Shown one piece after another: positions 1 to 51,845 of a stretch of DNA of 64,000 bases (position 1 is its first letter; each line of letters opens with the position of its first letter). Source of the stretch: Lepisosteus oculatus (taxonomy: Eukaryota > Chordata > Actinopteri > Semionotiformes > Lepisosteidae); the NCBI RefSeq assembly GCF_040954835.1, contig NC_090697.1, positions 43,398,788-43,462,787 on the forward strand, in the 5' to 3' direction. Made by a program: the position numbers and the translations under genes. The notes under the pieces are model-generated. The model searched no databases, had not been told where the DNA came from, and was given only the letters and a program-made list of their open reading frames with translations.

Positions 1-119
1 ACAGTCAGAAATGTGCAGCCAGAAAACTCTTCCTCCTCTTCGTGAGGAAGAGGGGATCTATGACAAAGAAAGAAACAAAGAGTCAAAAACCTTCCCCTCA
101 AACAAAACTAGGATCCTTT

Positions 120-165
120 CTTATATAGCTTACCCAATACCTAAATCAAAGTGCTGTCCAATCAG
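120..165 (-). promoter_or_regulatory. Second promoter-like module (CCAAT plus TATATAAG) in the array unit
   Basis: TATATAAG on the minus strand at 127-120, with a perfect CCAAT box sequence (CCAATCAG) at 158-165 about 30 bp upstream of it. The module recurs in all five units (for example 3380-3425). Transcription from it would run into the region ahead of the TATA promoter of the next gene to the left. No long coding start follows. It may drive an alternative first exon or a non-coding transcript. Confidence 0.3.
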
Positions 166-566
166 CTATTAAAATCTGTAGCAGCAATGTGTAAGTAACT
201 GACAGGATCTCTGAAGGCCAGAGGTAATTATATGACCGTTGAACCCAAATGAAAAAAAGGAATTGTGTTTTTTGTGTTATTGGTTATAAACATGATTATC
301 CAAGAATACACAAGCCCTGTCTGTGGATTTTGTCAAATACGCCTGCTGTGTTACAGAGGTATTACAGAATGTTTTCGCCATCATCAGGGAACACTTGGAG
401 ATGAAGAGCCAAATGTGTCCCTGTATGAAATGACTTGATCCTCAGTAGCTTGAAGATGCTCTCAGTCAACAATAAACGCATAAATAACAGCGTGAATACA
501 CAGTTACAGAGAGATGTTTCATCATGAAAAAAAAAAAAACTGAATACACATTTAGTTTGAGATTCT

Positions 567-572
567 TTTATT
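567..572 (-). terminator. Poly(A) signal AATAAA, copy 1
   Basis: AATAAA on the minus strand starts 28 bases past the stop codon that ends at 600. It is repeated at the same place in every unit. Confidence 0.6.
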
Positions 573-599
573 AAATGGTTTCAAGGCACGTGTTTTCTT

Positions 600-2613
600 T
601 CACAGCTCTGTTTCTTCTGAGCCGACCTCAGCCCACAGGATGTATGAGCCCTCCTCAGAGGAGTCCGTGCTGCTGAAAGACTCCTGGGAGACATGCAGCT
701 CATCTTCCTCGCCATCCTCTTGCCAGGAGGAGGGGGAAGGAATAGGCACTCCTGGAAGCTGCCAGTCTATCTGCAAAGTGACCAGGAAGACAAGAGAAGA
801 CATTGTAATAGGTTTATTCCATGCTGAAAAAAAGAAGAAAGAGAACACAACGTTTCGGCCGTGGAGCCTTCTTCAGGTGCCACCAAGAGAAGACATTGCT
901 TGACAGGGGAATGTCAATAGGAAACCTGCTTTCTTCCACATCCTTTTTTACATGGCAATTTCAACAGCCCGCTCTCTTCCAAGAGAACCCTATGGCATCG
1001 ACAGCTTTAATAAAGGGGCTTACTTTAGCAGAGGGTCCTGTGTCCTGTAGTTGAAGAGGCTCGGATTTTGGTCTGTTTCCGTTCCTCAACACTGAGAGGC
1101 CAATCAGTCCTGGGGCTGGGATGTCATTACCAACTAGAGGCAACGGTTGTGTTGGTAACATTTTAAATGGTTCAATTGTCTGTAATAAAATAAAATTCAC
1201 ATATGTAAAAAAGCACACAGACTCTCTGGCAGAGACAGTAACGATACACAGACTTGCAGTAGCAGGGAGTCCCGGCAGCACTGTGACTCTCTCACTCACT
1301 GGAGGGGGTGCAGTAACTGGCCTGATGGGCTTCTTGACAGAAACATCAGCCCACTTCGTGGTCGGGGGTCTGTCATTAGCCCGTGGAGCCTCTGGTGACA
1401 CTGGCCTTGGAAACTGTTCAACTGGCTGTGGGTTTAGGAAAGAAGGCCAATGGGTAAGGTGTTCATCTCATAGATATATATAGTATAGGCATGTTTTTTA
1501 TTTATTCTCTAGCTGTTCATACGAACCCTTGTTTTTTCAAGAGCTTCAAGTGTTGAAGACAAAGTTTGTCCTTTTCATAGCTAATTTCTTAAAGAATTTG
1601 AAATAGTATAGGACATCACTGGTATTGACCTCATTGGGGCAGCTATTGCCAGTTTTCTACCTTTCAGTATGACCACTGACTTAGAAAATCTGAAGCAATT
1701 TTGGCTCTGGAGTAAAAAGCATTAAGGGACATATTAAGAACATTGCAGATGTTGCAAGCACTAGGAGCCTGTTAGGCCTGCCTTGGTGATTTGGAAACCT
1801 ACGGTATATTCTAAGTGAATGTAAAATGTATTTTTTCTATTTCTAGAAAACTATTAGTTTCTAATTGTTACCCTTTTTCTACCTGTTAGTTTCTCAGGGT
1901 ACTTGGATCACACCCGCAATGTTCACACAGTGCCCATGTGACTCACAGTTGTGTGTCCTTTTTCAGGGTCTTTATGTCCTGCAGAGACAGGGTCTGTCAC
2001 TGGAGTGGGGCCGCTGGAGTTGTTAGGCTGAATCCCAGTCGGTTCCGCTTGCTTGTTCGAGACTGATAGGGGGCTGGGGGGTGTCTTCACATCAGAGTCT
2101 GTAATTCAGATGACCATCAAGAAACAGACTGGAAATATTCAGATAAATTCCTGTGAGGTGCTTCACACCCGGCTCGTCTCCTGAACCCCACTTTTCAGAA
2201 TGTAAACGGGTTGATGCAGATGACACACTAAGTCACATTTTATTTTCTGTTACCCATGGGTAAACATATCAAAGTCAGATCTGTTATCAGCAGTCTTGTA
2301 AAAGGACTGTTGTCTTTCAGGCTAATAGAAAAAGCTCCTTACCAGTAGAACATGAGGTGGCAGGAGTAGCCGTGGTCTTCTCTTTGCGGTTGCGGGTTTT
2401 GGAATTGGGCCCGGGGGTGACTCCACCGCAGCAGACACACAGGGCCATGATGTGAAGAAAAAAAGAAGCGAAACAGTTTTTCTTCTTGTTTCCTGGACGC
2501 CTTCTCTTTTTCCTTTTTTTCCAGGCACATTCATGGTCACCTGGGGGGGTAACTGGAGGGCCTCTGGCCTTCCAGGCCTGTGGCCCCCTTGGGTCACTCT
2601 GACATTGACCCAT
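600..2613 (-). CDS. Novel five-exon proline-rich protein, array copy 1
   Basis: Spliced model read by hand: 2613-2343, 2098-1947, 1425-1258, 1179-1024 and 770-600 (stop), giving 305 codons. Every acceptor is AG after a pyrimidine-rich or AT-rich tract. Donors are GTAAGG, GTGAGT, GCAAGT and GTAAGC. Phases agree throughout (1,0,0,0). Residues 1-6 are MGQCQS, a PROSITE-type N-myristoylation motif. A lysine/arginine tract lies near residues 32-46, then a short hydrophobic cysteine-rich stretch near 47-64. Exons 2-4 are rich in Pro, Ser and Thr and look disordered. The last exon is acidic, has the only tyrosine (SYILW) and ends ETEL, a class I PDZ-ligand form. A TATA box lies about 108 bp upstream of the ATG and AATAAA follows the stop. 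I recognise no family. Membrane-edge location is inference from the motifs. The third intron (1180-1257, GC-AG, 78 nt) is in frame and open, so a 331-aa form is possible. Confidence 0.62.
806..880 (-). mobile_element. Penelope-like fragment with hammerhead-like core, copy 1 intron
   Basis: This 75-bp block sits in the last intron of the array gene. It recurs at 20230-20304 and, scrambled, at 62651-62730, so it is dispersed and not part of the gene. On the minus strand it reads CTGAAGA (876-870), a GGC/GCC stem, GAAAC (856-852), then G-T-T-GTG. This is the layout of the hammerhead core known in Penelope-like retroelements. Assignment to that family is from the motif only. Confidence 0.5.
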
Positions 2614-2720
2614 AGAGCAAAGAAGCTAACGAAAGACCTACTTTGTAATCCAAAAGAAGGTAAGTGCAGGGCTGTCCACAATTAAATGTGACCAATCCTC
2701 ACATGTAAGAGGGTGACCCC

Positions 2721-2811
2721 CTTTTATAGGCTTGTGATAGTGTAAGAATTCCGCTGTCACCTGGAATAACATTCTGATGCGTTCATGTTGCCAAGCATTA
2801 GTGTGATGTCA
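2721..2811 (-). promoter_or_regulatory. TATA promoter with CRE-like site, copy 1
   Basis: On the minus strand TATAAAAG lies at 2728-2721 and TGACATCA, one base from the palindromic CRE, at 2811-2804. A start site about 30 nt below the TATA (near 2697) would make the ATG at 2613 the first or second ATG in the message. The position just ahead of the coding exon supports the gene model. Confidence 0.55.
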
Positions 2812-3826
2812 TAACTCACCTCATAAAGCTGTTTATATCACTGTTCACTGTTTGCAGCATCCCTTTCAGTATTAAATATTCAAAAGCCTTTTAATTACTT
2901 CGATTTGTGCTTAACACTGTTAACTGAGCGATAATATTCGACTCCTTGTTGTGGTGATTCCACCGCAAACATCATCTCCTGTGTCAAGGCATCATTGCCT
3001 TTTCTTCTGCCAGCGGAATCCCCTGAAATACAAACTACAATTTCAAAGATAATTATTTCAGTAGTTCTTATAATTCAGCTTCATTGTTATGTGCTTGTAC
3101 AGTTGCTGTAGGATATTCCTGGATCTGTAAGAATGGTGAAAACAACCTCCAGTTATAATGTCTACTTATATACAGTATATATACTAAAGATAACCTCCCC
3201 TGAAGCTTACATGTGGATTCTTCTGCTTGGTACAATGTTCTAGAAACAAAAATAAGAAATACAGTCAGAAATGTGCAGCCAGAAAACTCTTCCTCCTCTT
3301 CGTGAGGAAGAGGGGATCTATGACAAAGAAAGAAACAAAGAGTCAAAAACCTTCCCCTCAAACAAAACTAGGATCCTTTCTTATATAGCTTACCCAATAC
3401 CTAAATCAAAGTGCTGTCCAATCAGCTATTAAAATCTGTAGCAGCAATGTGTAAGTAACTGACAGGATCTCTGAAGGCCAGAGGTAATTATATGACCGTT
3501 GAACCCAAATGAAAAAAAGGAATTGTGTTTTTTGTGTTATTGGTTATAAACATGATTATCCAAGAATACACAAGCCCTGTCTGTGGATTTTGTCAAATAC
3601 GCCTGCTGTGTTACAGAGGTATTACAGAATGTTTTCGCCATCATCAGGGAACACTTGGAGATGAAGAGCCAAATGTGTCCCTGTATGAAATGACTTGATC
3701 CTCAGTAGCTTGAAGATGCTCTCAGTCAACAATAAACGCATAAATAACAGCGTGAATACACAGTTACAGAGAGATGTTTCATCATGAAAAAAAAAAAAAC
3801 TGAATACACATTTAGTTTGAGATTCT

Positions 3827-3832
3827 TTTATT
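3827..3832 (-). terminator. Poly(A) signal AATAAA, copy 2
   Basis: Minus-strand AATAAA just past the stop codon at 3860. Confidence 0.6.
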
Positions 3833-3859
3833 AAATGGTTTCAAGGCACGTGTTTTCTT

Positions 3860-5873
3860 TCACAGCTCTGTTTCTTCTGAGCCGACCTCAGCCCACAGGA
3901 TGTATGAGCCCTCCTCAGAGGAGTCCGTGCTGCTGAAAGACTCCTGGGAGACATGCAGCTCATCTTCCTCGCCATCCTCTTGCCAGGAGGAGGGGGAAGG
4001 AATAGGCACTCCTGGAAGCTGCCAGTCTATCTGCAAAGTGACCAGGAAGACAAGAGAAGACATTGTAATAGGTTTATTCCATGCTGAAAAAAAGAAGAAA
4101 GAGAACACAACGTTTCGGCCGTGGAGCCTTCTTCAGGTGCCACCAAGAGAAGACATTGCTTGACAGGGGAATGTCAATAGGAAACCTGCTTTCTTCCACA
4201 TCCTTTTTTACATGGCAATTTCAACAGCCCGCTCTCTTCCAAGAGAACCCTATGGCATCGACAGCTTTAATAAAGGGGCTTACTTTAGCAGAGGGTCCTG
4301 TGTCCTGTAGTTGAAGAGGCTCGGATTTTGGTCTGTTTCCGTTCCTCAACACTGAGAGGCCAATCAGTCCTGGGGCTGGGATGTCATTACCAACTAGAGG
4401 CAACGGTTGTGTTGGTAACATTTTAAATGGTTCAATTGTCTGTAATAAAATAAAATTCACATATGTAAAAAAGCACACAGACTCTCTGGCAGAGACAGTA
4501 ACGATACACAGACTTGCAGTAGCAGGGAGTCCCGGCAGCACTGTGACTCTCTCACTCACTGGAGGGGGTGCAGTAACTGGCCTGATGGGCTTCTTGACAG
4601 AAACATCAGCCCACTTCGTGGTCGGGGGTCTGTCATTAGCCCGTGGAGCCTCTGGTGACACTGGCCTTGGAAACTGTTCAACTGGCTGTGGGTTTAGGAA
4701 AGAAGGCCAATGGGTAAGGTGTTCATCTCATAGATATATATAGTATAGGCATGTTTTTTATTTATTCTCTAGCTGTTCATACGAACCCTTGTTTTTTCAA
4801 GAGCTTCAAGTGTTGAAGACAAAGTTTGTCCTTTTCATAGCTAATTTCTTAAAGAATTTGAAATAGTATAGGACATCACTGGTATTGACCTCATTGGGGC
4901 AGCTATTGCCAGTTTTCTACCTTTCAGTATGACCACTGACTTAGAAAATCTGAAGCAATTTTGGCTCTGGAGTAAAAAGCATTAAGGGACATATTAAGAA
5001 CATTGCAGATGTTGCAAGCACTAGGAGCCTGTTAGGCCTGCCTTGGTGATTTGGAAACCTACGGTATATTCTAAGTGAATGTAAAATGTATTTTTTCTAT
5101 TTCTAGAAAACTATTAGTTTCTAATTGTTACCCTTTTTCTACCTGTTAGTTTCTCAGGGTACTTGGATCACACCCGCAATGTTCACACAGTGCCCATGTG
5201 ACTCACAGTTGTGTGTCCTTTTTCAGGGTCTTTATGTCCTGCAGAGACAGGGTCTGTCACTGGAGTGGGGCCGCTGGAGTTGTTAGGCTGAATCCCAGTC
5301 GGTTCCGCTTGCTTGTTCGAGACTGATAGGGGGCTGGGGGGTGTCTTCACATCAGAGTCTGTAATTCAGATGACCATCAAGAAACAGACTGGAAATATTC
5401 AGATAAATTCCTGTGAGGTGCTTCACACCCGGCTCGTCTCCTGAACCCCACTTTTCAGAATGTAAACGGGTTGATGCAGATGACACACTAAGTCACATTT
5501 TATTTTCTGTTACCCCTGGGTAAACATATCAAAGTCAGATCTGTTATCAGCAGTCTTGTAAAAGGACTGTTGTCTTTCAGGCTAATAGAAAAAGCTCCTT
5601 ACCAGTAGAATATGAGGTGGCAGGAGTAGCCGTGGTCTTCTCTTTGCGGTTGCGGGTTTTGGAATTTGGCCCGGGGGTGACTCCACCGCAGCAGACACAC
5701 AGGGCCATGATGTGAAGAAAAAAAGAAGCGAAACAGTTTTTCTTCTTGTTTCCTGGACGCCTTCTCTTTTTCCTTTTTTTCCAGGCACATTCATGGTCAC
5801 CTGGGGGGGTAACTGGTGGGCCTCTGGCCTTCCAGGCCTGTGGCCCCCTTGGGTCACTCTGACATTGACCCAT
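3860..5873 (-). CDS. Novel five-exon proline-rich protein, array copy 2
   Basis: Exons 5873-5603, 5358-5207, 4685-4518, 4439-4284 and 4030-3860, with the same splice sites and phases as copy 1. The predicted 305-aa product differs from copy 1 only by Tyr for Cys at residue 88. Two further exon 1 changes, both in proline codons, are silent, which favours this reading frame over the overlapping 119-codon frame, where they change amino acids. Function unknown. Confidence 0.62.
4066..4140 (-). mobile_element. Penelope-like fragment, copy 2 intron
   Basis: Same 75-bp block with the hammerhead-like core as in unit 1. It was copied with the unit rather than inserted again. Confidence 0.5.
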
Positions 5874-5980
5874 AGAGCAAAGAAGCTAATAAAAGACCTA
5901 CTTTGTAATCCAAAAGAAGGTAAGTGCAGGGCTGTCCACAATTAAATGTGACCAATCCTCACATGTAAGAGGGTGACCCC

Positions 5981-6071
5981 CTTTTATAGGCTTGTGATAG
6001 TGTAAGAATTCCGCTGTCACCTGGAATAACATTCTGATGCGTTCATGTTGCCAAGCATTAGTGTGATGTCA
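5981..6071 (-). promoter_or_regulatory. TATA promoter with CRE-like site, copy 2
   Basis: TATAAAAG at 5988-5981 and TGACATCA at 6071-6064 on the minus strand, identical to copy 1. Confidence 0.55.
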
Positions 6072-7084
6072 TAACTCACCTCATAAAGCTGTTTATATCA
6101 CTGTTCACTGTTTGCAGCATCCCTTTCAGTATTAAATATTCAAAAGCCTTTTAATTACTTCGATTTGTGCTTAACACTGTTAACTGAGCGATAATATTCG
6201 ACTCCTTGTTGTGGTGATTCCACCGCAAACATCATCTCCTGTGTCAAGGCATCATTGCCTTTTCTTTTGCCAGCGGAATCCCCTGAAATACAAACTACAA
6301 TTTCAAAGATAATTATTTCAGTAGTTCTTATAATTCAGCTTCATTGTTATGTGCTTGTACAGTTGCTGTAGGATATTCCTGGATCTGTAAGAATGGTGAA
6401 AACAACCTCCAGTTATAATGTCTACTTATATACAGTATATATACTAAAGATAAACTCCCCTGAAGCTTACATGTGGATTCTTCTGCTTGGTACAATGTTC
6501 TAGAAACAAAAATAAGAAATACAGTCAGAAATGTGCAGCCAGAAAACTCTTCCTCCTCTTCGTGAGGAAGAGGGGATCTATGACAAAGAAAGAAACAAAG
6601 AGTCAAAAACCTTCCCCTCAAACAAAACTAGGATCCTTTCTTATATAGCTTACCCAATACCTAAATCAAAGTGCTGTCCAATCAGCTATTAAAATCTGTA
6701 GCAGCAATGTGTAAGTAACTGACAGGATCTCTGAAGGCCAGAGGTAATTATATGACCGTTGAACCCAAATGAAAAAAAGGAATTGTGTTTTTTGTGTTAT
6801 TGGTTATAAACATGATTATCCAAGAATACACAAGCCCTGTCTGTGGATTTTGTCAAATACGCCTGCTGTGTTACAGAGGTATTACAGAATGTTTTCGCCA
6901 TCATCAGGGAACACTTGGAGATGAAGAGCCAAATGTGTCCCTGTATGAAATGACTTGATCCTCAGTAGCTTGAAGATGCTCTCAGTCAACAATAAACGCA
7001 TAAATAACAGCGTGAATACACAGTTACAGAGAGATGTTTCATAATGAAAAAAAAAAACTGAATACACATTTAGTTTGAGATTCT

Positions 7085-7090
7085 TTTATT
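7085..7090 (-). terminator. Poly(A) signal AATAAA, copy 3
   Basis: Minus-strand AATAAA just past the stop codon at 7118. Confidence 0.6.
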
Positions 7091-7117
7091 AAATGGTTTC
7101 AAGGCACGTGTTTTCTT

Positions 7118-9131
7118 TCACAGCTCTGTTTCTTCTGAGCCGACCTCAGCCCACAGGATGTATGAGCCCTCCTCAGAGGAGTCCGTGCTGCTGAAAAACT
7201 CCTGGGAGACATGCAGCTCATCTTCCTCGCCATCCTCTTGCCAGGAGGAGGGGGAAGGAATAGGCACTCCTGGAAGCTGCCAGTCTATCTGCAAAGTGAC
7301 CAGGAAGACAAGAGAAGACATTGTAATAGGTTTATTCCATGCTGAAAAAAAGAAGAAAGAGAACACAACGTTTCGGCCGTGGAGCCTTCTTCAGGTGCCA
7401 CCAAGAGAAGACATTGCTTGACAGGGGAATGTCAATAGGAAACCTGCTTTCTTCCACATCCTTTTTTACATGGCAATTTCAACAGCCCGCTCTCTTCCAA
7501 GAGAACCCTATGGCATCGACAGCTTTAATAAAGGGGCTTACTTTAGCAGAGGGTCCTGTGTCCTGTAGTTGAAGAGGCTCGGATTTTGGTCTGTTTCCGT
7601 TCCTCAACACTGAGAGGCCAATCAGTCCTGGGGCTGGGATGTCATTACCAACTAGAGGCAACGGTTGTGTTGGTAACATTTTAAATGGTTCAATTGTCTG
7701 TAATAAAATAAAATTCACATATGTAAAAAAGCACACAGACTCTCTGGCAGAGACAGTAACGATACACAGACTTGCAGTAGCAGGGAGTCCCGGCAGCACT
7801 GTGACTCTCTCACTCACTGGAGGGGGTGCAGTAACTGGCCTGATGGGCTTCTTGACAGAAACATCAGCCCACTTCGTGGTCGGGGGTCTGTCATTAGCCC
7901 GTGGAGCCTCTGGTGACACTGGCCTTGGAAACTGTTCAACTGGCTGTGGGTTTAGGAAAGAAGGCCAATGGGTAAGGTGTTCATCTCATAGATATATATA
8001 GTATAGGCATGTTTTTTATTTATTCTCTAGCTGTTCATACGAACCCTTGTTTTTTCAAGAGCTTCAAGTGTTGAAGACAAAGTTTGTCCTTTTCATAGCT
8101 AATTTCTTAAAGAATTTGAAATAGTATAGGACATCACTGGTATTGACCTCATTGGGGCAGCTATTGCCAGTTTTCTACCTTTCAGTACGACCACTGACTT
8201 AGAAAATCTGAAGCAATTTTGGCTCTGGAGTAAAAAGCATTAAGGGACATATTAAGAACATTGCAGATGTTGCAAGCACTAGGAGCCTGTTAGGCCTGCC
8301 TTGGTGATTTGGAAACCTACGGTATATTCTAAGTGAATGTAAAATGTATTTTTTCTATTTCTAGAAAACTATTAGTTTCTAATTGTTACCCTTTTTCTAC
8401 CTGTTAGTTTCTCAGGGTACTTGGATCACACCCGCAATGTTCACACAGTGCCCATGTGACTCACAGTTGTGTGTCCTTTTTCAGGGTCTTTATGTCCTGC
8501 AGAGACAGGGTCTGTCACTGGAGTGGGGCCGCTGGAGTTGTTAGGCTGAATCCCAGTCGGTTCCGCTTGCTTGTTCGAGACTGATAGGGGGCTGGGGGGT
8601 GTCTTCACATCAGAGTCTGTAATTCAGATGACCATCAAGAAACAGACTGGAAATATTCAGATAAATTCCTGTGAGGTGCTTCACACCCGGCTCGTCTCCT
8701 GAACCCCACTTTTCAGAATGTAAACGGGTTGATGCAGATGACACACTAAGTCACATTTTATTTTCTGTTACCCCTGGGTAAACATATCAAAGTCAGATCT
8801 GTTATCAGCAGTCTTGTAAAAGGACTGTTGTCTTTCAGGCTAATAGAAAAAGCTCCTTACCAGTAGAATATGAGGTGGCAGGAGTAGCCGTGGTCTTCTC
8901 TTTGCGGTTGCGGGTTTTGGAATTTGGCCCGGGGGTGACTCCACCGCAGCAGACACACAGGGCCATGATGTGAAGAAAAAAAGAAGCGAAACAGTTTTTC
9001 TTCTTGTTTCCTGGACGCCTTCTCTTTTTCCTTTTTTTCCAGGCACATTCATGGTCACCTGGGGGGGTAACTGGTGGGCCTCTGGCCTTCCAGGCCTGTG
9101 GCCCCCTTGGGTCACTCTGACATTGACCCAT
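7118..9131 (-). CDS. Novel five-exon proline-rich protein, array copy 3
   Basis: Exons 9131-8861, 8616-8465, 7943-7776, 7697-7542 and 7288-7118, with splice sites as in copy 1. It carries Tyr at residue 88 (as copy 2) and Phe for Ser in the last exon, giving QEFFSS (as copy 4). Otherwise the predicted protein matches copy 1. All exons are open and phases agree. Function unknown. Confidence 0.62.
7324..7398 (-). mobile_element. Penelope-like fragment, copy 3 intron
   Basis: Same block and core motif as in unit 1, carried inside the last intron. Confidence 0.5.
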
Positions 9132-9238
9132 AGAGCAAAGAAGCTAATAAAAGACCTACTTTGTAATCCAAAAGAAGGTAAGTGCAGGGCTGTCCACAAT
9201 TAAATGTGACCAATCCTCACATGTAAGAGGGTGACCCC

Positions 9239-9329
9239 CTTTTATAGGCTTGTGATAGTGTAAGAATTCCGCTGTCACCTGGAATAACATTCTGATGCGT
9301 TCATGTTGCCAAGCATTAGTGTGATGTCA
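9239..9329 (-). promoter_or_regulatory. TATA promoter with CRE-like site, copy 3
   Basis: TATAAAAG at 9246-9239 and TGACATCA at 9329-9322 on the minus strand. Confidence 0.55.
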
Positions 9330-10344
9330 TAACTCACCTCATAAAGCTGTTTATATCACTGTTCACTGTTTGCAGCATCCCTTTCAGTATTAAATATTCA
9401 AAAGCCTTTTAATTACTTCGATTTGTGCTTAACACTGTTAACTGAGCGATAATATTCGACTCCTTGTTGTGGTGATTCCACCGCAAACATCATCTCCTGT
9501 GTCAAGGCATCATTGCCTTTTCTTCTGCCAGCGGAATCCCCTGAAATACAAACTACAATTTCAAAGATAATTATTTCAGTAGTTCTTATAATTCAGCTTC
9601 ATTGTTATGTGCTTGTACAGTTGCTGTAGGATATTCCTGGATCTGTAAGAATGGTGAAAACAACCTCCAGTTATAATGTCTACTTATATACAGTATATAT
9701 ACTAAAGATAACCTCCCCTGAAGCTTACATGTGGATTCTTCTGCTTGGTACAATGTTCTAGAAACAAAAATAAGAAATACAGTCAGAAATGTGCAGCCAG
9801 AAAACTCTTCCTCCTCTTCGTGAGGAAGAGGGGATCTATGACAAAGAAAGAAACAAAGAGTCAAAAACCTTCCCCTCAAACAAAACTAGGATCCTTTCTT
9901 ATATAGCTTACCCAATACCTAAATCAAAGTGCTGTCCAATCAGCTATTAAAATCTGTAGCAGCAATGTGTAAGTAACTGACAGGATCTCTGAAGGCCAGA
10001 GGTAATTATATGACCGTTGAACCCAAATGAAAAAAAGGAATTGTGTTTTTTGTGTTATTGGTTATAAACATGATTATCCAAGAATACACAAGCCCTGTCT
10101 GTGGATTTTGTCAAATACGCCTGCTGTGTTACAGAGGTATTACAGAATGTTTTCGCCATCATCAGGGAACACTTGGAGATGAAGAGCCAAATGTGTCCCT
10201 GTATGAAATGACTTGATCCTCAGTAGCTTGAAGATGCTCTCAGTCAACAATAAACGCATAAATAACAGCGTGAATACACAGTTACAGAGAGATGTTTCAT
10301 CATGAAAAAAAAAAAAACTGAATACACATTTAGTTTGAGATTCT

Positions 10345-10350
10345 TTTATT
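10345..10350 (-). terminator. Poly(A) signal AATAAA, copy 4
   Basis: Minus-strand AATAAA just past the stop codon at 10378. Confidence 0.6.
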
Positions 10351-10377
10351 AAATGGTTTCAAGGCACGTGTTTTCTT

Positions 10378-12391
10378 TCACAGCTCTGTTTCTTCTGAGC
10401 CGACCTCAGCCCACAGGATGTATGAGCCCTCCTCAGAGGAGTCCGTGCTGCTGAAAAACTCCTGGGAGACATGCAGCTCATCTTCCTCGCCATCCTCTTG
10501 CCAGGAGGAGGGGGAAGGAATAGGCACTCCTGGAAGCTGCCAGTCTATCTGCAAAGTGACCAGGAAGACAAGAGAAGACATTGTAATAGGTTTATTCCAT
10601 GCTGAAAAAAAGAAGAAAGAGAACACAACGTTTCGGCCGTGGAGCCTTCTTCAGGTGCCACCAAGAGAAGACATTGCTTGACAGGGGAATGTCAATAGGA
10701 AACCTGCTTTCTTCCACATCCTTTTTTACATGGCAATTTCAACAGCCCGCTCTCTTCCAAGAGAACCCTATGGCATCGACAGCTTTAATAAAGGGGCTTA
10801 CTTTAGCAGAGGGTCCTGTGTCCTGTAGTTGAAGAGGCTCGGATTTTGGTCTGTTTCCGTTCCTCAACACTGAGAGGCCAATCAGTCCTGGGGCTGGGAT
10901 GTCATTACCAACTAGAGGCAACGGTTGTGTTGGTAACATTTTAAATGGTTCAATTGTCTGTAATAAAATAAAATTCACATATGTAAAAAAGCACACAGAC
11001 TCTCTGGCAGAGACAGTAACGATACACAGACTTGCAGTAGCAGGGAGTCCCGGCAGCACTGTGACTCTCTCACTCACTGGAGGGGGTGCAGTAACTGGCC
11101 TGATGGGCTTCTTGACAGAAACATCAGCCCACTTCGTGGTCGGGGGTCTGTCATTAGCCCGTGGAGCCTCTGGTGACACTGGCCTTGGAAACTGTTCAAC
11201 TGGCTGTGGGTTTAGGAAAGAAGGCCAATGGGTAAGGTGTTCATCTCATAGATATATATAGTATAGGCATGTTTTTTATTTATTCTCTAGCTGTTCATAC
11301 GAACCCTTGTTTTTTCAAGAGCTTCAAGTGTTGAAGACAAAGTTTGTCCTTTTCATAGCTAATTTCTTAAAGAATTTGAAATAGTATAGGACATCACTGG
11401 TATTGACCTCATTGGGGCAGCTATTGCCAGTTTTCTACCTTTCAGTATGACCACTGACTTAGAAAATCTGAAGCAATTTTGGCTCTGGAGTAAAAAGCAT
11501 TAAGGGACATATTAAGAACATTGCAGATGTTGCAAGCACTAGGAGCCTGTTAGGCCTGCCTTGGTGATTTGGAAACCTACGGTATATTCTAAGTGAATGT
11601 AAAATGTATTTTTTCTATTTCTAGAAAACTATTAGTTTCTAATTGTTACCCTTTTTCTACCTGTTAGTTTCTCAGGGTACTTGGATCACACCCGCAATGT
11701 TCACACAGTGCCCATGTGACTCACAGTTGTGTGTCCTTTTTCAGGGTCTTTATGTCCTGCAGAGACAGGGTCTGTCACTGGAGTGGGGCCGCTGGAGTTG
11801 TTAGGCTGAATCCCAGTCGGTTCCGCTTGCTTGTTCGAGACTGATAGGGGGCTGGGGGGTGTCTTCACATCAGAGTCTGTAATTCAGATGACCATCAAGA
11901 AACAGACTGGAAATATTCAGATAAATTCCTGTGAGGTGCTTCACACCCGGCTCGTCTCCTGAACCCCACTTTTCAGAATGTAAACGGGTTGATGCAGATG
12001 ACACACTAAGTCACATTTTATTTTCTGTTACCCCTGGGTAAACATATCAAAGTCAGATCTGTTATCAGCAGTCTTGTAAAAGGACTGTTGTCTTTCAGGC
12101 TAATAGAAAAAGCTCCTTACCAGTAGAACATGAGGTGGCAGGAGTAGCCGTGGTCTTCTCTTTGCGGTTGCGGGTTTTGGAATTAGGCCCGGGGGTGACT
12201 CCACCGCAGCAGACACACAGGGCCATGATGTGAAGAAAAAAAGAAGCGAAACAGTTTTTCTTCTTGTTTCCTGGACGCCTTCTCTTTTTCCTTTTTTTCC
12301 AGGCACATTCATGGTCACCTGGGGGGGTAACTGGTGGGCCTCTGGCCTTCCAGGCCTGTGGCCCCCTTGGGTCACTCTGACATTGACCCAT
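10378..12391 (-). CDS. Novel five-exon proline-rich protein, array copy 4
   Basis: Exons 12391-12121, 11876-11725, 11203-11036, 10957-10802 and 10548-10378, with splice sites as in copy 1. Residue 88 is Cys as in copy 1; the last exon has QEFFSS as in copy 3. A proline codon in exon 1 is CCT here, CCC in copy 1 and CCA in copies 2 and 3: three silent variants at one codon. Function unknown. Confidence 0.62.
10584..10658 (-). mobile_element. Penelope-like fragment, copy 4 intron
   Basis: Same block and core motif as in unit 1. Confidence 0.5.
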
Positions 12392-12498
12392 AGAGCAAAG
12401 AATCTAACGAAAGACCTACTTTGTAATCCAAAAGAAGGTAAGTGCAGGGCTGTCCACAATTAAATGTGACCAATCCTCACATGTAAGAGGGTGACCCC

Positions 12499-12589
12499 CT
12501 TTTATAGGCTTGTGATAGTGTAAGAATTCCGCTGTCACCTGGAATAACATTCTGATGCGTTCATGTTGCCAAGCATTAGTGTGATGTCA
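12499..12589 (-). promoter_or_regulatory. TATA promoter with CRE-like site, copy 4
   Basis: TATAAAAG at 12506-12499 and TGACATCA at 12589-12582 on the minus strand. Confidence 0.55.
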
Positions 12590-13601
12590 TAACTCACCTC
12601 ATAAAGCTGTTTATATCACTGTTCACTGTTTGCAGCATCCCTTTCAGTATTAAATATTCAAAAGCCTTTTAATTACTTCGATTTGTGCTTAACACTGTTA
12701 ACTGAGCGATAATATTCGACTCCTTGTTGTGGTGATTCCACCGCAAACATCATCTCCTGTGTCAAGGCATCATTGCCTTTTCTTCTGCCAGCGGAATCCC
12801 CTGAAATACAAACTACAATTTCAAAGATAATTATTTCAGTAGTTCTTATAATTCAGCTTCATTGTTATGTGCTTGTACAGTTGCTGTAGGATATTCCTGG
12901 ATCTGTAAGAATGGTGAAAACAACCTCCAGTTATAATGTCTACTTATATACAGTATATATACTAAAGATAACCTCCCCTGAAGCTTACATGTGGATTCTT
13001 CTGCTTGGTACAATGTTCTAGAAACAAAAATAAGAAATACAGTCAGAAATGTGCAGCCAGAAAACTCTTCCTCCTCTTCGTGAGGAAGAGGGGATCTATG
13101 ACAAAGAAAGAAACAAAGAGTCAAAAACCTTCCCCTCAAACAAAACTAGGATCCTTTCTTATATAGCTTACCCAATACCTAAATCAAAGTGCTGTCCAAT
13201 CAGCTATTAAAATCTGTAGCAGCAATGTGTAAGTAACTGACAGGATCTCTGAAGGCCAGAGGTAATTATATGACCGTTGAACCCAAATGAAAAAAAGGAA
13301 TTGTGTTTTTTGTGTTATTGGTTATAAACATGATTATCCAAGAATACACAAGCCCTGTCTGTGGATTTTGTCAAATACGCCTGCTGTGTTACAGAGGTAT
13401 TACAGAATGTTTTCGCCATCATCAGGGAACACTTGGAGATGAAGAGCCAAATGTGTCCCTGTATGAAATGACTTGATCCTCAGTAGCTTGAAGATGCTCT
13501 CAGTCAACAATAAACGCATAAATAACAGCGTGAATACACAGTTACAGAGAGATGTTTCATAATGAAAAAAAAAACTGAATACACATTTAGTTTGAGATTC
13601 T

Positions 13602-13607
13602 TTTATT
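13602..13607 (-). terminator. Poly(A) signal AATAAA, copy 5
   Basis: Minus-strand AATAAA just past the stop codon at 13635. Confidence 0.55.
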
Positions 13608-13634
13608 AAATGGTTTCAAGGCACGTGTTTTCTT

Positions 13635-15642
13635 TCACAGCTCTGTTTCTTCTGAGCCGACCTCAGCCCACAGGATGTATGAGCCCTCCTCAGAGGAGTC
13701 TGTGCTGCTGAAAGACTCCTGGGAGACATGCAGCTCATCTTCCTCGCCATCCTCTTGCCAGGAGGAGGGGGAAGGAATAGGCACTCCTGGAAGCTGCCAG
13801 TCTATCTGCAAAGTGACCAAGAAGACAAGAGAAGACATTGTAATAGGTTTATTCCATGCTTTAAAAAAGAAGAAAGAGAACATAACGTTTCGGCCGTGGA
13901 GCCTTCTTCAGGTGCCACCAAGAGAAGACATTGCTTGACAGGGGAATGTCAATAGGAAACCTGCTTTCTTCCACATCCTTTTTTACATGGCAATTTCAAC
14001 AGCCCGCTCTCTTCCAAAAGAACCCTATGGCATCGACGGCTTTAATAAAGGGGCTTACTTTAGCAGAGGGTCCTGTGTCCTGTAGTTGAAGAGGCTCGGA
14101 TTTTGGTCTGTTTCCGTTCCTCAACACTGAGAGGCCAATCAGTCCTGCGGCTGGGATGTCATTACCAACAAGAGGCAACGGTTGTGTTGGTAACATTTTA
14201 AATGGTTCAATTGTCTGTAATAAAATACAAATCACATATGTAAAGAAGCACACAGACTCTTTGGCAGAGACAGTAACGATACACAGACTTGCAGTAGCAG
14301 GGAGTCCCGGCAGCACTGTGACTCTCTCACTCACTGGAGGAGGTGCAGTAACTGGCCTGATGGGCTTCTTGACAGGAATATCAGCCCACTTCGTGGTCGG
14401 GGGTCTGTCATTAGCCCGTGGAGCCTCTGGTGACACTGGCCTTGGAAACTGTTCAACTGGCTGTGGGTTTAGGAAAGAAGGCCAATGGCTAAGGTGTTCA
14501 TCTCATAGATATATATAGTATAGGCATGTTTGTTATTTATTCTCTAGCTGTTCATACGAACCCTTGTTTTTTCAAGAGCTTCAAGTGTTGAAGACAAAGT
14601 TTGTCCTTTTCATAGCTAATTTCTTAAAGAATTTGAAATAATATAGGACATCACTGTTATTGACCTCTTTGGGGCAGCTATTGCCAGTTTTCTACCTTTC
14701 AGTTTGACCACTGACTTAGAAAATCTGAAGCAATTTTGGCTCTGGAGTAAAAAGCATTAATATTAAGAACATTGCAGATGTTGCAAGCACTAGGAGCCTG
14801 TTAGGCCTGCCTTGGTGGTTTGGAAACCTACGGTATATTCTAAGTGAATGTAAAATGTATTTTTTCTATTTCTAGAAAACTATTAGTTTCTAATTGTTAC
14901 CCTTTTTCTACCTGTTAGTTTCTGAGGGTACTTGGATCACACCCGCAATGTTCACACAGTGCCCATGTGACTCAAAGTTGTGTGTCCTTTTTCAGGGTCT
15001 TTATGTCCTGCAGAGACAGGGTCTGTCACTGGAGTGGGGCCGCTGGAGTTGTTAGGCTGAATCCCAGTCGGTTCCGCTTGCTTGTTCGAGACTGATAGGG
15101 GGCTGGGGGGTGTCTTCACATCAGAGTCTGTAATTCAGATGACCATCAAGAAACAGACTGGAAATATTCAGATAAATTCCTGTGAGGTGCTTCACACCCG
15201 GCTCGTCTCCTGAACCCCACTTTTCAGAATGTAAACGGGTTGATGCAGATGACACAGTAAGTCACATTTTATTTTCTGTTACCCCTGGGTAAACATATCA
15301 AAGTTAGATCTGTTATCAGCAGTCTTGTAAAAGGACTGTTGCCTTTCAGGCTAATAGAAAAAGCTCCTTACCAGTAGAACATGAGGTGGCAGGAGTAGCC
15401 GTGGTCTTCTCTTTGCGGTTGCGGGTTTTGGAATTAGGTCCGGGGGTGACTCCACCGCAGCAGACACACAGGGCCATGATGTGAAGAAAAAAAGAAGCGA
15501 AACAGTTTTTCTTCTTGTTTCCTGGACGCCTTCTCTTTTTCCTTTTTTTCCAGGCACATTCATGGTCACCTGGGGGGGTAACTGGTGGGCCTCTGGCCTT
15601 CCAGGCCTGTGGCCCCCTTGGGTCACTCTGACATTGACCCAT
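13635..15642 (-). pseudogene. Array copy 5 of the proline-rich gene, exon 2 splice donor lost
   Basis: Equivalent exons are 15642-15372, 15127-14976, 14460-14293, 14214-14059 and 13805-13635. All five frames are open. The donor after exon 2 is GT in copies 1-4 but TT here, through one change at 14975. Reading on would add seven residues after residue 141 and stop, giving about 148 aa. Skipping exon 2 would shift the frame. Substitutions I count against copy 1 in the exons: six silent and three replacement (Val to Ile, Ser to Pro, Pro to Ala). The gene was therefore under constraint until recently. It could still work through a cryptic donor, and a sequencing error is possible. Confidence 0.55.
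13841..13915 (-). mobile_element. Penelope-like fragment, copy 5 intron
   Basis: Same block as in the other units, with a few substitutions. The CTGAAGA and GAAAC core boxes are unchanged. Confidence 0.5.
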
Positions 15643-15749
15643 AGAGCAAAGAAGCTAACGAAAGACCTACTTTGTAATCCAAAAGAAGGTAAGTGCAGGG
15701 CTGTCCACAATTAAATGTGACCAATCCTCACATGTAAGAGGGTGACCCC

Positions 15750-15840
15750 CTTTTATAGGCTTGTGATAGTGTAAGAATTCCGCTGTCACCTGGAATAACA
15801 TTCTGATGCGTTCATGTTGCCAAGCATTAGTGTGATGTCA
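15750..15840 (-). promoter_or_regulatory. TATA promoter with CRE-like site, copy 5
   Basis: TATAAAAG at 15757-15750 and TGACATCA at 15840-15833 remain intact, although the unit is cut off about 150 bp further upstream. Confidence 0.5.
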
Positions 15841-15989
15841 TAACTCACCTCATAAAGCTGTTTATATCACTGTTCACTGTTTGCAGCAACCCTTTCAGTA
15901 TTAAATATTCAAAAGCCTTTCAATTACTTCGATTTGTGCTTTAAACTGTTAACTGAGCGAGAATATTTGACTCCTTGTTGTGGTGATTC

Positions 15990-17873
15990 ATGCACTGTCA
16001 GACACAATGCCTGTGTTTGGCATGGAACACACTTGGTGTAGAGTTTGCATGTTCTGCATGGGTTAATGGCTGTCTCTGAATTCCTGCTCCACGTTTTTCT
16101 GTGTGCTCTACACTGAACAGCTGATTATACTGTAGCCCTGTTTGTGTTGTCAGACCACTATATGATAAGGTGACGATATAAATATGGAAGCTTGATTTAT
16201 ATTTCACATATTGATATTGTACAATGAAATACAATTTTATTAAGTATTGGATGCAGGGCAGTAATAATATAGCTGACCACTTATTACTGTAGCATGATCA
16301 TCGTATTGTAACTGTATCCAGTTTATTGTAATAGTGCTCCAATTTCCTCCTGCAGTTCAAAGATACTGGTAAGTTAATTGGCTTCTAGGAATGTTGATCA
16401 TGTGTTTGTATCTGTATGTTTGTATCTGTATGCTTTGCAATGAATGTCTTTTCCAATATGTCCAGTGTGTATCCTGCCTTGCGCCTGTTGCTTGTTGGAT
16501 AGGCTCTGGCTCTACCTGAATGGAAAGAAGCTGTTAGAAATTGTATGGACATAATATACAAATTCAAAGTTAAAGAGTACAAATACAAAACATATCTATA
16601 CATTTACACTTAAGCTGGTAAATATTGAAAATAATAGATGTTTTATCTCATTAAGTAGAATTTGAAATTGTTGGTATTGAGCTTTGGAAACTTTTGCCAG
16701 GAATTATAATGGCATCAACAGTGCATATCTCGAAGCAGATTCGATTTACACATATAGGTAGGAAGAATGTGTTCAAATGTATATGTTTATAATGCTACTA
16801 TAACGTTGATGCCTAACAGCTCTTGGGTCCTTGGTTCAATTCTGTATTGAGTGCTAGCGCCCTCCTGTGGAGTTTGAATGCTCTCCTTGTGGTCACTTGG
16901 GTTTAAGCCTTGGATTCTCCCACACCCCAAGATACACACACTCACCATATGTGACAGAGCAGTCGCTGATACACTTGCAGCAGTAAATGCTTTGTGACTT
17001 GCCTTTGCACAGCTAGCAGTCCAGTGTTTTTTGGTGTTGCAAAGACCTTGTAAAAGAAGGACCAACACTAGAGGCCATTATAGGTCTGCAAGCCTGGACA
17101 GAAGAAAACACCATTTGTAATTTTTGATCTGATAAATGCCTATAATGAATTGTACTACTCTCTTGTAGTGTTAGTGTATGCATGTCATTTACGCTCTCTG
17201 CATATATGGATGTGGTTTGTTTCATGTATTGTGTTATTTGTATGTTTTATTGTCTGTTTGTTTTAGAACCAGGGCATATGAAAGACATGCTGAGAAGCAG
17301 AGCAAAGGGGCATTTTGAGAGCATTTGACTGACAGTTTGCTGTGCAATATAGGAGGAACAGTGGTGGTAACCCACATTGGTTTATTATTTTGTTTTTTTT
17401 TTGTTACCCAGTCTTTTGTTATTTGTATTTTGCTGACCCTTGTTTTATGAATTTAATTTTTGTTGTTGTTTTTTTTGTTCCTGTTTACTGTGACTGAAAG
17501 ACACCTTGAAGTTGCTGAGGTCCTATCAAGAGCCACAATCTTAAAAAAATCTATCCTTTCTTGTCCTGGAACCTTAGATTTTTTAATCTTTTGATTCTGG
17601 TCTGACTCAGTGAAGAAAAACACATCCTGGTCTACACTACCCACACAGAAAAGCTTATTTGACGGTATGACTAAGCATTGAACTTAGATATTTCCATATG
17701 AGTGCAAATTGAACCTCAGTTTCATTTTAAAATTTAACCTTGGAAAAAAAACCTAGGTAATCTTAGTTTTATACTGGTTTATATAATATTTAAGTGTAGT
17801 AAAGGTAAAACAGTTGTGAGTTAAAAGAGACAAAATGGGGTACTTTCAGTAAACAAGCCCATTTTCATTACAT
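15990..17873 (+). repeat. Degenerate tRNA-type SINE pieces after the array
   Basis: Blocks at about 16040-16110, 16335-16540 and 16805-16935 carry the SINE core recurring in this window: a GTTTGCATGTTCT-like box, a GGTAAGTTAATTGGC-like box and a TATCCTGCCTTG box. The pieces may be one older element broken by insertions. I see no gene between them. Confidence 0.45.
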
Positions 17874-18640: not shown

Positions 18641-20229
18641 GTACCTATGTTTTTCTTGATTTTTGTCTAGATTCACATGACAAAACAAATGAAGAGCAAA
18701 CTGACCTGTAGGGGGACAGGTCTATTCTATTTGGCAATTCAGAAATGGAACAGATACCAAAAACTATCCACACACAATCACCTTTCACAAATTGAAAGGA
18801 AGAAGCTGGAAATGTCAACTTCAACAGCATTTTCCTGCTTATCAAATGTTCAGAGCATTGTACCAAATGTTTGCATCCAAATGACTATATCATTGTATGT
18901 GACTGAAATCACCAGATCAATGCCAGGACCTCATTGTTATTGGACTAATTATTTCCATTCATTTCTGTCTTACAAACTTAATCCCAGTACGTTGCCTTTG
19001 AAAAATCAATGTCACAGAACTGAAGAATCCTTCCAAAAGATAATTCACTGAAGAATGCATTGGAGTAAGGCTCTCAAGACTCAACCATGAACAAATGAAA
19101 ATACTTCATTCTACTTGTGATCACCTCAAAATAAGTATCCTCAATACCTAAAAAGAGAAACTTGGATTAGTTTGATCAACATATGTTTAATACTATTTAG
19201 TGGAAAGGTATCCAGAACCTTATATAAGGAAGGGTATATTGGAAGGAGCATTATGAAAATATATTCATAATACATTTCTAGTATTCACTATCTCAATATA
19301 TTCAATTCCATCATAGAATACCTAATTAAATCTGATCTTGGAACTCTTAACAATGTCATAATAGCCATCATGCAGATGAAGGGCAACAAAACAGCAGGAG
19401 GCGAAATAATTCCTGCTATAAGTTTTAGGCATAGTGAACAGGAAATAACATAGCTGTACATCCCCATGCCCCACCTTACACATTTGGAATGAAGGGGTGA
19501 TTTGGCAATTTGGCACTGCGAGCAGAGTACTCCAACAACACGAGACTTTCCCACCCAGCACCCGAGACGGCATTCTGTGCACAAAGTCAGAGGTAAGGAC
19601 TCCTCTTTCCAAAAGTCCCGACTCTCTTGTGCTGTGGTGGGGAGGCTCCCTTGTCCAGGGAGTACAGCCTAAATGTAAGTTTGCCGAGCCAGCAGGAGTT
19701 CCCTGGCCCAAGGGAGGCACTGGTGCAGTTGTGGGTAAGTGCTGTAAGGCTCAATTCTGTCCCGGGCAGGCATTTTCTGTTTGGTGCTGTAAATTCCAGT
19801 TCTCTCCTGTCAAGCGTCCGTGTTATTTGTTGGAAAGCCCAGTAGCACTTCGGTGTTTTATTGTTTCATTACTGTTTTATTGTTTCATTGTTGTTATATT
19901 GTTGTTTTCAGAATGGATAAAAAGTGGATAAAAAGTGGTGTGATGAGATGATAGTACAGCTATCAGATTATGTGAGTAAGAAAAAAAGGGCGAAGGAAAC
20001 TGAAGAAAAATTGAAGAAAAAATTAGGTCTGCCAGAGGGTGTGTGGGATGTTGCAGCTTGTGGAAAGGTGTTTGAATACGGCTGTTAAATTAGATACATG
20101 TAAAGGCAAAACAAAATATAACACGTTATAATTAAATTAGAACTAAAATGTTCACGAAGTATAAAACCTCATCTAAGACCTTAAGGATGTAATGCGGAAA
20201 AAAATATTCTTAATGTGTAAAGGAACAAG

Positions 20230-20304
20230 TAATAGGTTTATTCCATGCTGAAAGAAAGAAGAAAGAGAACACAACGTTTCGGCTGTGGAGCCTTCTTCAG
20301 GTGT
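20230..20304 (-). mobile_element. Penelope-like fragment inside the ERV
   Basis: Nearly identical to the block in the array introns (806-880), including the CTGAAGA and GAAAC boxes on the minus strand. This shows the block is a dispersed element. Confidence 0.5.
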
Positions 20305-23045: not shown

Positions 23046-23852
23046 CCACTGTTGGTGGGAAAAAATGTGTCACTGCAGGATGATGAGGTGTGGCGCTGCC
23101 AGCAGACCGAATCCCCTGCATGCCCTCACTGCCTAATGCCTTTTGTTGCCTGAAATTGGAGACCTGGGTGTGAGTCAAATGGTGTGCCGGTTTTCCCAAC
23201 GGGTGGGGACTGCCCTGCCGCTTGGATTCTAATCAAACTACACACGTCACTAGAAAGGTGTCAGGCGATTGCCTCACCGTGAGTGATGTGGGATCTACAC
23301 TGCCCCCATCATCCTCAGTCTTCAGGGAAAGTGGAGAGGGTTAATCAAACCCTCAAGAAGAGACTCACTAAGTAGTCTGTGTGAGGGGTCTCCTGGGTGA
23401 ACTCCCTCCTCGCGGAGCTGAGTAGTTTGAGAGCTGGGACCAACCGGACCACAGGACTAAACCCTATTTGAAGTTGTCACAGGGAGGCCAATGCATCTCA
23501 CTGATACTTTTGTTGCCCACCAGCATGATCTGAGACAACTAATTCTGTGTTGCAGTATTGTCATTTGCTTTCACAGACCAATGCCCTCACCATCCACCAA
23601 GTGAAGGCGGCCTGGGTAAAGACCATTCCTGGAGGCCACGACCTACAGCTGGGAGAGTGGGTGTGGATTAAAAAGATACAATCCCAGAAGCTTCAGGCTG
23701 AGTGGGAGGGGCCGTACCAAATGCTGCTGATGACAGACTGTGAAAGTCCAAAGGAAGGACCAGTGGATTCATGCCTCCTTCTGTCGACATGCACAACCTC
23801 TGGTGGAATCCACAACATAAAGACTATTTTTTTGTTTTGTTTTGAGGAGTAG
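23046..23852 (+). pseudogene. ERV integrase remnant
   Basis: Around 23320-23370 the translation matches the end of a retroviral integrase core ([10 protein letters not shown]). The open frame at 23547-23852 carries a GEWVWIKK motif and WEGPYQ, typical of the integrase C-terminal domain. The segment is interrupted by stops and frameshifts. Confidence 0.6.
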
Positions 23853-33977: not shown

Positions 33978-34520
33978 TCACACAGCCATATCACTCTGCA
34001 ACTCACTGAAGCTAAGCAGGTGTGAGCCTGGTCAGTACCTGGATGGGAGACCTCCTGGGAAAAACTAAGGTTGCTGCTGGAAGAGGTGTTAGTGGGGCCA
34101 GCAGGGGGCACTCACCCTGTGGTTCATGCGGGTCCTAATGCCCCAGTAGAGTGATGGGGACACTATACTTTAAACAGGTGCTGTCCTTTGGATGAGATCC
34201 CAGAAAAATCCCAGGGAGTTTCTTGAAAAGTGTAGGGGTGTAACCCTGATGTCCTGGCCATATTTCCCATTGGCCCTTACCAATCATGGCCTCCGAATAA
34301 TTCCCATCTATGAATTGGCTTCATTACTCTGCTCTCCTCCCCACTGATAGCTGATGTGTGGTGAGCGTTCTGGTGCACTATGGCTGCTGTCGCATCATCC
34401 AGGTGGATGCTGCACATTGGTGGTGGTGGAGGGGAGTCCCCATTACCTGTAAAGTGCTTTGAGTGGAGTGTCCATATATAAGTGCTACATAAGTGTAAGC
34501 AATCATTATTATTATAATTA
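33978..34520 (+). mobile_element. 5S rRNA-derived SINE
   Basis: The head resembles 5S rRNA internal-promoter sequence (GAAGCTAAGCAGG, GGTCAGTACCTGGATGGGAG). A central body follows, then a LINE-like 3' tail (GCTTTGAGTGGAGTGTCC) and ATT repeats. Such 5S SINEs (SINE3 class) are known in fish. It is a mobile element, not a 5S gene. Confidence 0.75.
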
Positions 34521-51773: not shown

Positions 51774-51845
51774 TGCGTTGGCCAGAAATCAAGCCCAGGT
51801 CAACTGTTTGGAAGGCAGCTATGCTCACCACTATACCACCAATAC
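51774..51845 (-). tRNA. tRNA-Gly(TCC)-like pseudogene
   Basis: The minus strand gives a 72-nt cloverleaf-like sequence close to vertebrate tRNA-Gly-TCC. It has the A box TGGTATAGTGG, anticodon loop CTTCCAA in the context CTGCCTTCCAAACAG, and 3' end GGCCAACGCA. The T loop is altered (CTTGATT) and the acceptor stem has a mismatch and a G-U pair. It is probably a pseudogene or SINE head. Confidence 0.6.

Follow-up and report, generated by a model that had tools for sequence, protein, structure and literature searches.

The array at the C2 locus

The genomic window analyzed here is a 64,000-nucleotide stretch of the spotted gar (Lepisosteus oculatus) genome (C2:43398788-43462787; all copy counts below come from one assembly), the left part of which is occupied by a tandem array whose units each carry a protein-coding gene on the minus strand. 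Self-alignment of the window (self-BLAST) delimited the five head-to-tail units of ~3.26 kb that an initial annotation of this DNA had proposed, followed by a native flank:

1..3260, minus strand: array unit U1, 3260 bp, intact gene, near-identical
3261..6520, minus strand: array unit U2, 3260 bp, intact gene
6521..9778, minus strand: array unit U3, 3258 bp, intact gene
9779..13038, minus strand: array unit U4, 3260 bp, intact gene
13039..15989, minus strand: array unit U5, 2951 bp, the most 5' copy, ~1.3% diverged, exon-2 donor changed from GT to TT
15990..16291, minus strand: native 5' flank of U5, aligning with older copies as far as 16291 (paralog A), 16317 (paralog B) and 16241 (the C13a relic), ends approximate

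Chance is excluded as the source of this array because a 12.7-kb stretch of the window aligns with itself at 99.4% identity. Over unit positions 301-3260, U1-U4 share 99.70-99.90% pairwise identity, and U5 matches them at 98.6-98.7%. Left of the window lie two further near-identical units (C2:43392276-43398787), giving seven copies in the assembly (five in the window plus two) with a top pairwise identity of 99.97%; the suspicion that the array ran past the left edge, with a true copy number above five, was thus justified. U5 is not truncated within its gene: the duplication breakpoint sits in the 5' flank, ~300 bp into the unit. U5 has kept 5' flanking sequence that predates the duplication, and some of the 3' flank survives at the leftmost copy.

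On the minus strand, the gene comprises a TATA box, exons with coding lengths of 271, 152, 126, 156 and 171 bases (five in all; intron phases 1, 0, 0, 0), a stop codon and a polyadenylation signal:

2804..2811, minus strand: TGACATCA element of U1, resembling a cAMP response element (CRE-like), lying 198 bp before the start codon
2722..2728, minus strand: U1 TATAAAA box
2343..2613, minus strand: U1 exon 1, coding part, with the MGQ start, a run of basic residues and a hydrophobic segment that leads into VCCGG, ending in phase 1
1947..2098, minus strand: U1 exon 2
1300..1425, minus strand: U1 exon 3
1024..1179, minus strand: U1 exon 4, skipped in isoform X2 of paralog A (P0003) and with no separate counterpart in the C5 and C13b genes
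600..770, minus strand: U1 exon 5 and stop, with a DWQLPGVP motif, an acidic tail and the C-terminus ETEL
567..572, minus strand: U1 AATAAA polyadenylation signal, 27 bases past the stop
5603..5873, 5207-5358, 4560-4685, 4284-4439 and 3860-4030, minus strand: U2 exons 1-5
8861..9131, 8465-8616, 7818-7943, 7542-7697 and 7118-7288, minus strand: U3 exons 1-5
12121..12391, 11725-11876, 11078-11203, 10802-10957 and 10378-10548, minus strand: U4 exons 1-5
15372..15642, 14976-15127, 14335-14460, 14059-14214 and 13635-13805, minus strand: U5 exons 1-5, exon 2 being 152 bases long with the broken donor just after it

The outline of a multi-exon gene with TATA box, five phase-compatible exons, stop and AATAAA is thus as first proposed, while the 305-residue product given for it is replaced by one of 291 aa, identical over all residues to the L. 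oculatus NCBI protein P0001. Introns are bounded by AG/GT throughout, with the U5 exon-2 donor as the sole exception. Frames are open in all seven copies and six are intact, U5 being counted as non-intact because its exon-2 donor reads TT instead of GT; a complete gene in every unit, as initially suggested, therefore holds for U1-U4 and fails for U5.

An interspersed element of ~78 bp occupies part of intron 4 in the array copies (U1 ~805-884) and again at window ~20228-20303. By eye, the intron-4 insertion is flanked by an apparent 15-bp target-site duplication, and none was seen at that place in paralogs A and B; elsewhere in the genome the element has ~60 matches, with identities reaching 100%, and several of these form inverted pairs.

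Related genes, a second array and relics

The array as first reported is real but incomplete, being the smaller part of a family whose members are spread over six chromosomes or large contigs (C2, C5, C7, C9, C13 and C18). Two older copies lie beside it. Paralog A (C2:43374.3-43377.8 kb) corresponds to the NCBI proteins P0002 and P0003, the second isoform lacking exon 4; given NCBI pipeline practice, the existence of two isoforms suggests that transcript reads underlie them. Residues 1-25 of P0002 (window 15974-16057) correspond to an upstream stretch seen also near U5, paralog B, the C13a relic and C5, and the start of the P0002 model may be an annotation artefact. Adjoining paralog A is a 350-codon open stretch (C2:43372359-43373408) that resembles a Tc1-type transposase by eye. 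Paralog B (C2 43384.9-43387.6 kb) has lost its promoter region and contains stops.

A genome search with the C-terminal part of the paralog A protein revealed a much longer array on C5, with 69 exon-5 matches spaced 3391-3506 bp apart without gaps, that is, in units of ~3.5 kb. Fetched stretches are mostly 98-99.6% alike, falling to 96.8% towards the right edge, and exon 1 is free of stops in 68/69 units, all except the one at the edge (34070-34072 kb). The gene on C5 is built of four exons, with intron phases 1, 0, 0. Fifteen TATA-bearing copies were fetched whole: 14 from the array's 69 units plus one older copy upstream. A complete protein of 292 or 296 aa is encoded by 11 of these 14 units; the other three are two in which exon 2 is one base longer, shifting the frame, and the edge copy (34071.9 kb), whose frameshift lies in exon 1. 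The older upstream copy (34077.0 kb) has decayed. Like macrosatellites, then, both the C2 and the C5 array consist of near-identical, head-to-tail units several kb long, with a reading frame inside the units (intact in 6/7 copies on C2 and in 11/14 of those fetched whole on C5).

A third intact lineage, C13b (C13:1899.9-1901.2 kb), is a single gene encoding 299 aa, with a TATA box, four exons, intron phases 1, 0, 0 and AATAAA; the only full-identity genome match of its exon 1 is itself, the next best reaching <=52%. About 4.5 kb upstream of it lies a gene that we take, from translated pieces compared by eye, to be prohibitin-2-like (phb2-like).

Relics with stops or lost exons occur on C7, C9, C13 (3.28 Mb) and C18. 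The relic at 3.28 Mb adjoins a receptor exon that looks V2R-like by eye. In C13a the promoter and exon 5 are conserved, and the place of exons 1-4 between them is taken by a sequence that looks Tc1-like by eye. One C18 relic stands at a separate site (20.19 Mb) and another lies inside a repeat of >3 kb. This repeat (5.8-18.9 Mb; up to 3.6 kb or more, 95-98% identity) carries a dead family member. Counting the query, it has at least 11 long copies, every one of them on C18 and in the same orientation, with only a 330-bp stretch of it on other chromosomes, among the 40 of 3868 candidates that were scored. Two pairs of its copies share a spacing of 36.9 kb, which suggests large duplicated blocks.

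We also considered a mobile-element origin of the unit. This was rejected, as homology between the flanks of copies reaches past the gene on both sides and therefore fits segmental duplication; terminal repeats were not systematically sought.

Conserved features of protein and promoter

Comparison of the three intact lineages (C2, C5 and C13b) revealed 36-45% aligned amino-acid identity and a common gene structure, with intron 1 in phase 1 and the following introns in phase 0 in all three. All begin with MGQ, in a match to the N-myristoylation pattern, and continue with a positively charged N-terminus (net charge +11 in C2, +5 in C5 and +6 in C13b) and one hydrophobic 17-mer running into VCCGG (mean hydropathy 1.9-2.1), which starts at residue 47, 52 and 50, respectively. 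An internal methionine (MALC) was rejected as the start because C5 and C13b lack it but conserve MGQ and the reading frame across VCCGG. Proline makes up 12.5-19% of residues, the last 70 residues are acidic (-16 in C2, -11 in C5, -11 in C13b), each protein has a single tyrosine, and S-x-E sites number 3-7 per protein. The C-termini ETEL (C2) and ETEV (C5) fit the class I PDZ-ligand consensus, a single copy among the 11 intact ones on C5 having ETEI instead.

Upstream, a promoter block comprising ATGACATCACACTA, CAGAATG, CCAGGTGACA and the TATA box is conserved in C2, C13a and C5, the TATA box being degraded within the block in the C13a relic. The TGACATCA element of the C2 units recurs in the C5, C13a and C13b promoters, and C13b has a TATA box too. 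Between C2 and C5, introns 1 and 2 align only over 46 bp after exon 2.

Homology searches

Protein and profile searches of the kind that the initial annotation had proposed for the spliced protein agreed with its view that the product belongs to no nameable family; they also showed that the gene had already been predicted by NCBI, under the misleading label "proteoglycan 4-like" (P0001-P0003). Pfam, searched at E up to 10 with five family sequences (P0001, P0002, P0003, C5 and C13b), gave no matches, and neither did a PDB profile search with A1. Within a set of 5.8 billion proteins only three gar proteins matched, one search having scored the 8000 candidates that shared most words; the queries included the spliced C2 model but neither the C5 nor the C13b protein. 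The C5 proteins and the C13 gene product were not among these matches, so the C5 copies may be unannotated and missed by standard annotation. No publication on the gar family turned up in a literature search conducted at the level of search listings.

Two other identities were tried. The MGQ start prompted a comparison with viral, retroviral or Gag-like proteins, which was rejected on the lack of Pfam matches and on an IMG/VR scan in which 39 stretches fit a pattern and none was confirmed as a relative. The ALCVCC by the hydrophobic stretch prompted a comparison with LAT/NTAL-type transmembrane adaptors, which have such a stretch and several tyrosine motifs. This was rejected on the single tyrosine and on the Pfam result, the presence of adaptor models in the Pfam library being unchecked.

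Constraint and exchange between copies

Evolutionarily, the ratio of nonsynonymous to synonymous substitution rates (dN/dS) between the three lineages is 0.36, 0.39 and 0.40 (dN 0.48-0.68, dS 1.3-1.7), rough values given the high dS and the protein-guided alignment; at ~0.4 across three lineages they support real coding. Within C2, dN/dS is 0.49 for U1-B and 0.2 for U1-U5 (three nonsynonymous and five synonymous changes; one-sided binomial P 0.027). A codon-position test was given no weight, as protein-guided alignment is biased towards coding-like results. Between U1 and paralog A, indels in exons 2 and 5 measure 39, 24 and 48 bp, those in exon 1 are ambiguous (7, 15, 4 and 1), and 6/9 indels in introns have lengths that three does not divide. 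Exons 1 and 4 differ more between U1 and A than introns 1 and 4 do. We do not claim positive selection from this, because dS is raised in these exons as well and patchy gene conversion therefore explains the excess equally well.

Recent expansion or homogenisation, proposed in the initial annotation from the near-identity of the units, is in keeping with a test of exchange among the six near-identical C2 copies. From the twelve variable substitution sites six two-state sites were picked, and 7 of their 15 site pairs show all four allele combinations, which is exchange between copies or repeated mutation.

Interpretation and alternatives

These loci represent a gene family of spotted gar without relatives elsewhere in the searches run, and its two arrays are coding macrosatellites; they combine coding capacity, long-term constraint, tandem structure and exchange-like patterns among copies. 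As to function, we tentatively favor, with a probability of roughly 0.45, a membrane-tethered, disordered adaptor that is needed in quantity within a narrow window, the germline or early embryo being our best guess. In each unit, the promoter with its TATA box and CRE-like TGACATCA would drive a protein of ~290-300 aa, transcription being suggested by the NCBI isoforms and the conserved promoters. The N-myristoylation-type start, the basic stretch and the hydrophobic segment into VCCGG would tether this protein to a membrane, the remaining Pro/Ser/Thr-rich chain would probably be disordered and end in an acidic tail, and the ETEL/ETEV tails of both arrays may bind PDZ domains. Copy number would then supply dosage, and exchange between copies would keep the units alike. 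Macrosatellites vary in copy number between individuals, and germline- or testis-biased expression is frequent among them without being universal; by analogy, germline expression of the gar family is our guess.

Several observations weigh against such an adaptor. The matches to the N-myristoylation and PDZ consensus patterns are short, and C13b, ending in EGKL, is without a PDZ-ligand terminus, leaving two of three lineages with one. For paralog A, the NCBI start is placed in the upstream stretch and is not MGQ, and the promoter carries TGACCTCA in place of TGACATCA. Over short spans of time, constraint is weak: dN/dS rises to 0.82 for U1-A and 0.95 for A-B (B being a pseudogene), and variable codons among 10 C5 copies comprise five nonsynonymous and one synonymous. 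Many copies are dead (B, C13a, C7, C9 and C18). Finally, the hydrophobic stretch at residue 47-52 could be a signal sequence.

This last point leads to the idea of a secreted matrix protein, mucin-like or of the secretory calcium-binding phosphoprotein (SCPP) kind, in which the VCCGG segment would be a cleaved signal sequence with a long n-region, releasing a Pro/Ser/Thr-rich acidic phosphoprotein. A hydrophobic 17-mer (1.9-2.1) after net positive charge in all three lineages, the acidic C-termini with 3-7 S-x-E sites per protein, and the many SCPP genes for which gar is known would all suit it, but the 46-51 residues before the segment are unusually many for a signal peptide, the phase-1 first intron in 3/3 lineages departs from the all-phase-0 introns known from SCPP genes, and Pfam gives no match; we consider it unlikely.

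Distinctly unlikely, in our judgment, is a gene of the selfish or conflict-driven type (meiotic drivers and their relatives being one example), whose spread, amplification and death would record an arms race and not a need for dosage. Copies on C2, C5, C7, C9, C13 and C18, many of them dead, two separate amplifications, and protein searches that match gar proteins only are what an arms race could leave behind, yet the C13 gene is intact and has not been amplified. In its most specific form the idea is a long shot: two macrosatellite builds (7 and 69 units) plus deaths elsewhere would be the pattern of a germline conflict or drive gene, and the product of the 69-unit array would be a myristoylated membrane protein that ends in a class I PDZ ligand and is apparently missing from annotation.

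Alternatively, the arrays might be non-coding, decaying macrosatellites that persist as structural or selfish repeats, their frames being relics. Broken copies (U5, 3/14 of the fetched C5 units, and the isolated B, C13a, C7, C9 and C18) and the apparently unconstrained short-term variation on C5 point that way; intact genes in 6/7 C2 and 11/14 C5 copies, dN/dS near 0.4 between lineages, conserved intron phases and promoter, and in-frame indels in exons 2 and 5 argue against it, and we think it very unlikely. True kinship with proteoglycan 4 (lubricin) has next to nothing in its favor beyond the automatic NCBI name on P0001-P0003, which may reflect Pro/Thr-rich low complexity, since Pfam scans of the five sequences at E up to 10 came back empty and the somatomedin-B and hemopexin domains of lubricin were not found.

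Other features of the window

Beyond the array, the following were noted:

33978..34082, plus strand: 5S rRNA-like sequence (Rfam RF00001, 45.3 bits)
51774..51845, minus strand: borderline tRNA-like match, for which ARAGORN reports no tRNA
~23500-23850: translated piece like the tail of a retroelement integrase, in decayed surroundings (by eye)

Comparison with known systems

What is novel here is the protein family, with members to date in spotted gar alone, and what is known is the kind of arrangement. The NCBI proteoglycan 4-like models already cover part of the family, P0001 being letter for letter the C2 gene and P0002/P0003 lying on paralog A, under a name without domain support. SCPP proteins are also of low complexity, acidic or Pro-rich, and numerous in gar; the present family differs from them in its phase-1 first intron and in a hydrophobic segment that is not at the very N-terminus.

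Among human arrays, as far as passages in two papers describe them (PMC3018141, PMC3599962), TAF11-Like (MSR5p) comes in ~3.4-kb tandem units of high identity with a reading frame, in 10-98 copies, and the gar arrays likewise consist of near-identical coding units of similar length. The difference is that TAF11-Like is named after a known protein and that its testis expression has been measured. In the same passages, PRR20 (FLJ40296) has array units that encode a proline-rich protein, a likeness to gar by description, with 6.6-kb units in 5-20 copies as against the 3.26- and 3.5-kb units of gar. D4Z4 (DUX4), RS447 (USP17) and CT47, as described there, also hold a protein gene per unit (3.3, 4.7 and 4.8 kb) but have assigned products (a homeobox factor, a deubiquitinase and a cancer/testis antigen), unlike the gar proteins, which have no Pfam family.

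Coding macrosatellites are best studied in people, and here a non-teleost ray-finned fish has two, built from one gene family. This raises the question of why a protein without recognised relatives needs up to ~75 gene copies. With an intact single-copy relative and graded relics in the same genome, the birth, homogenisation and death of such arrays can be read side by side.

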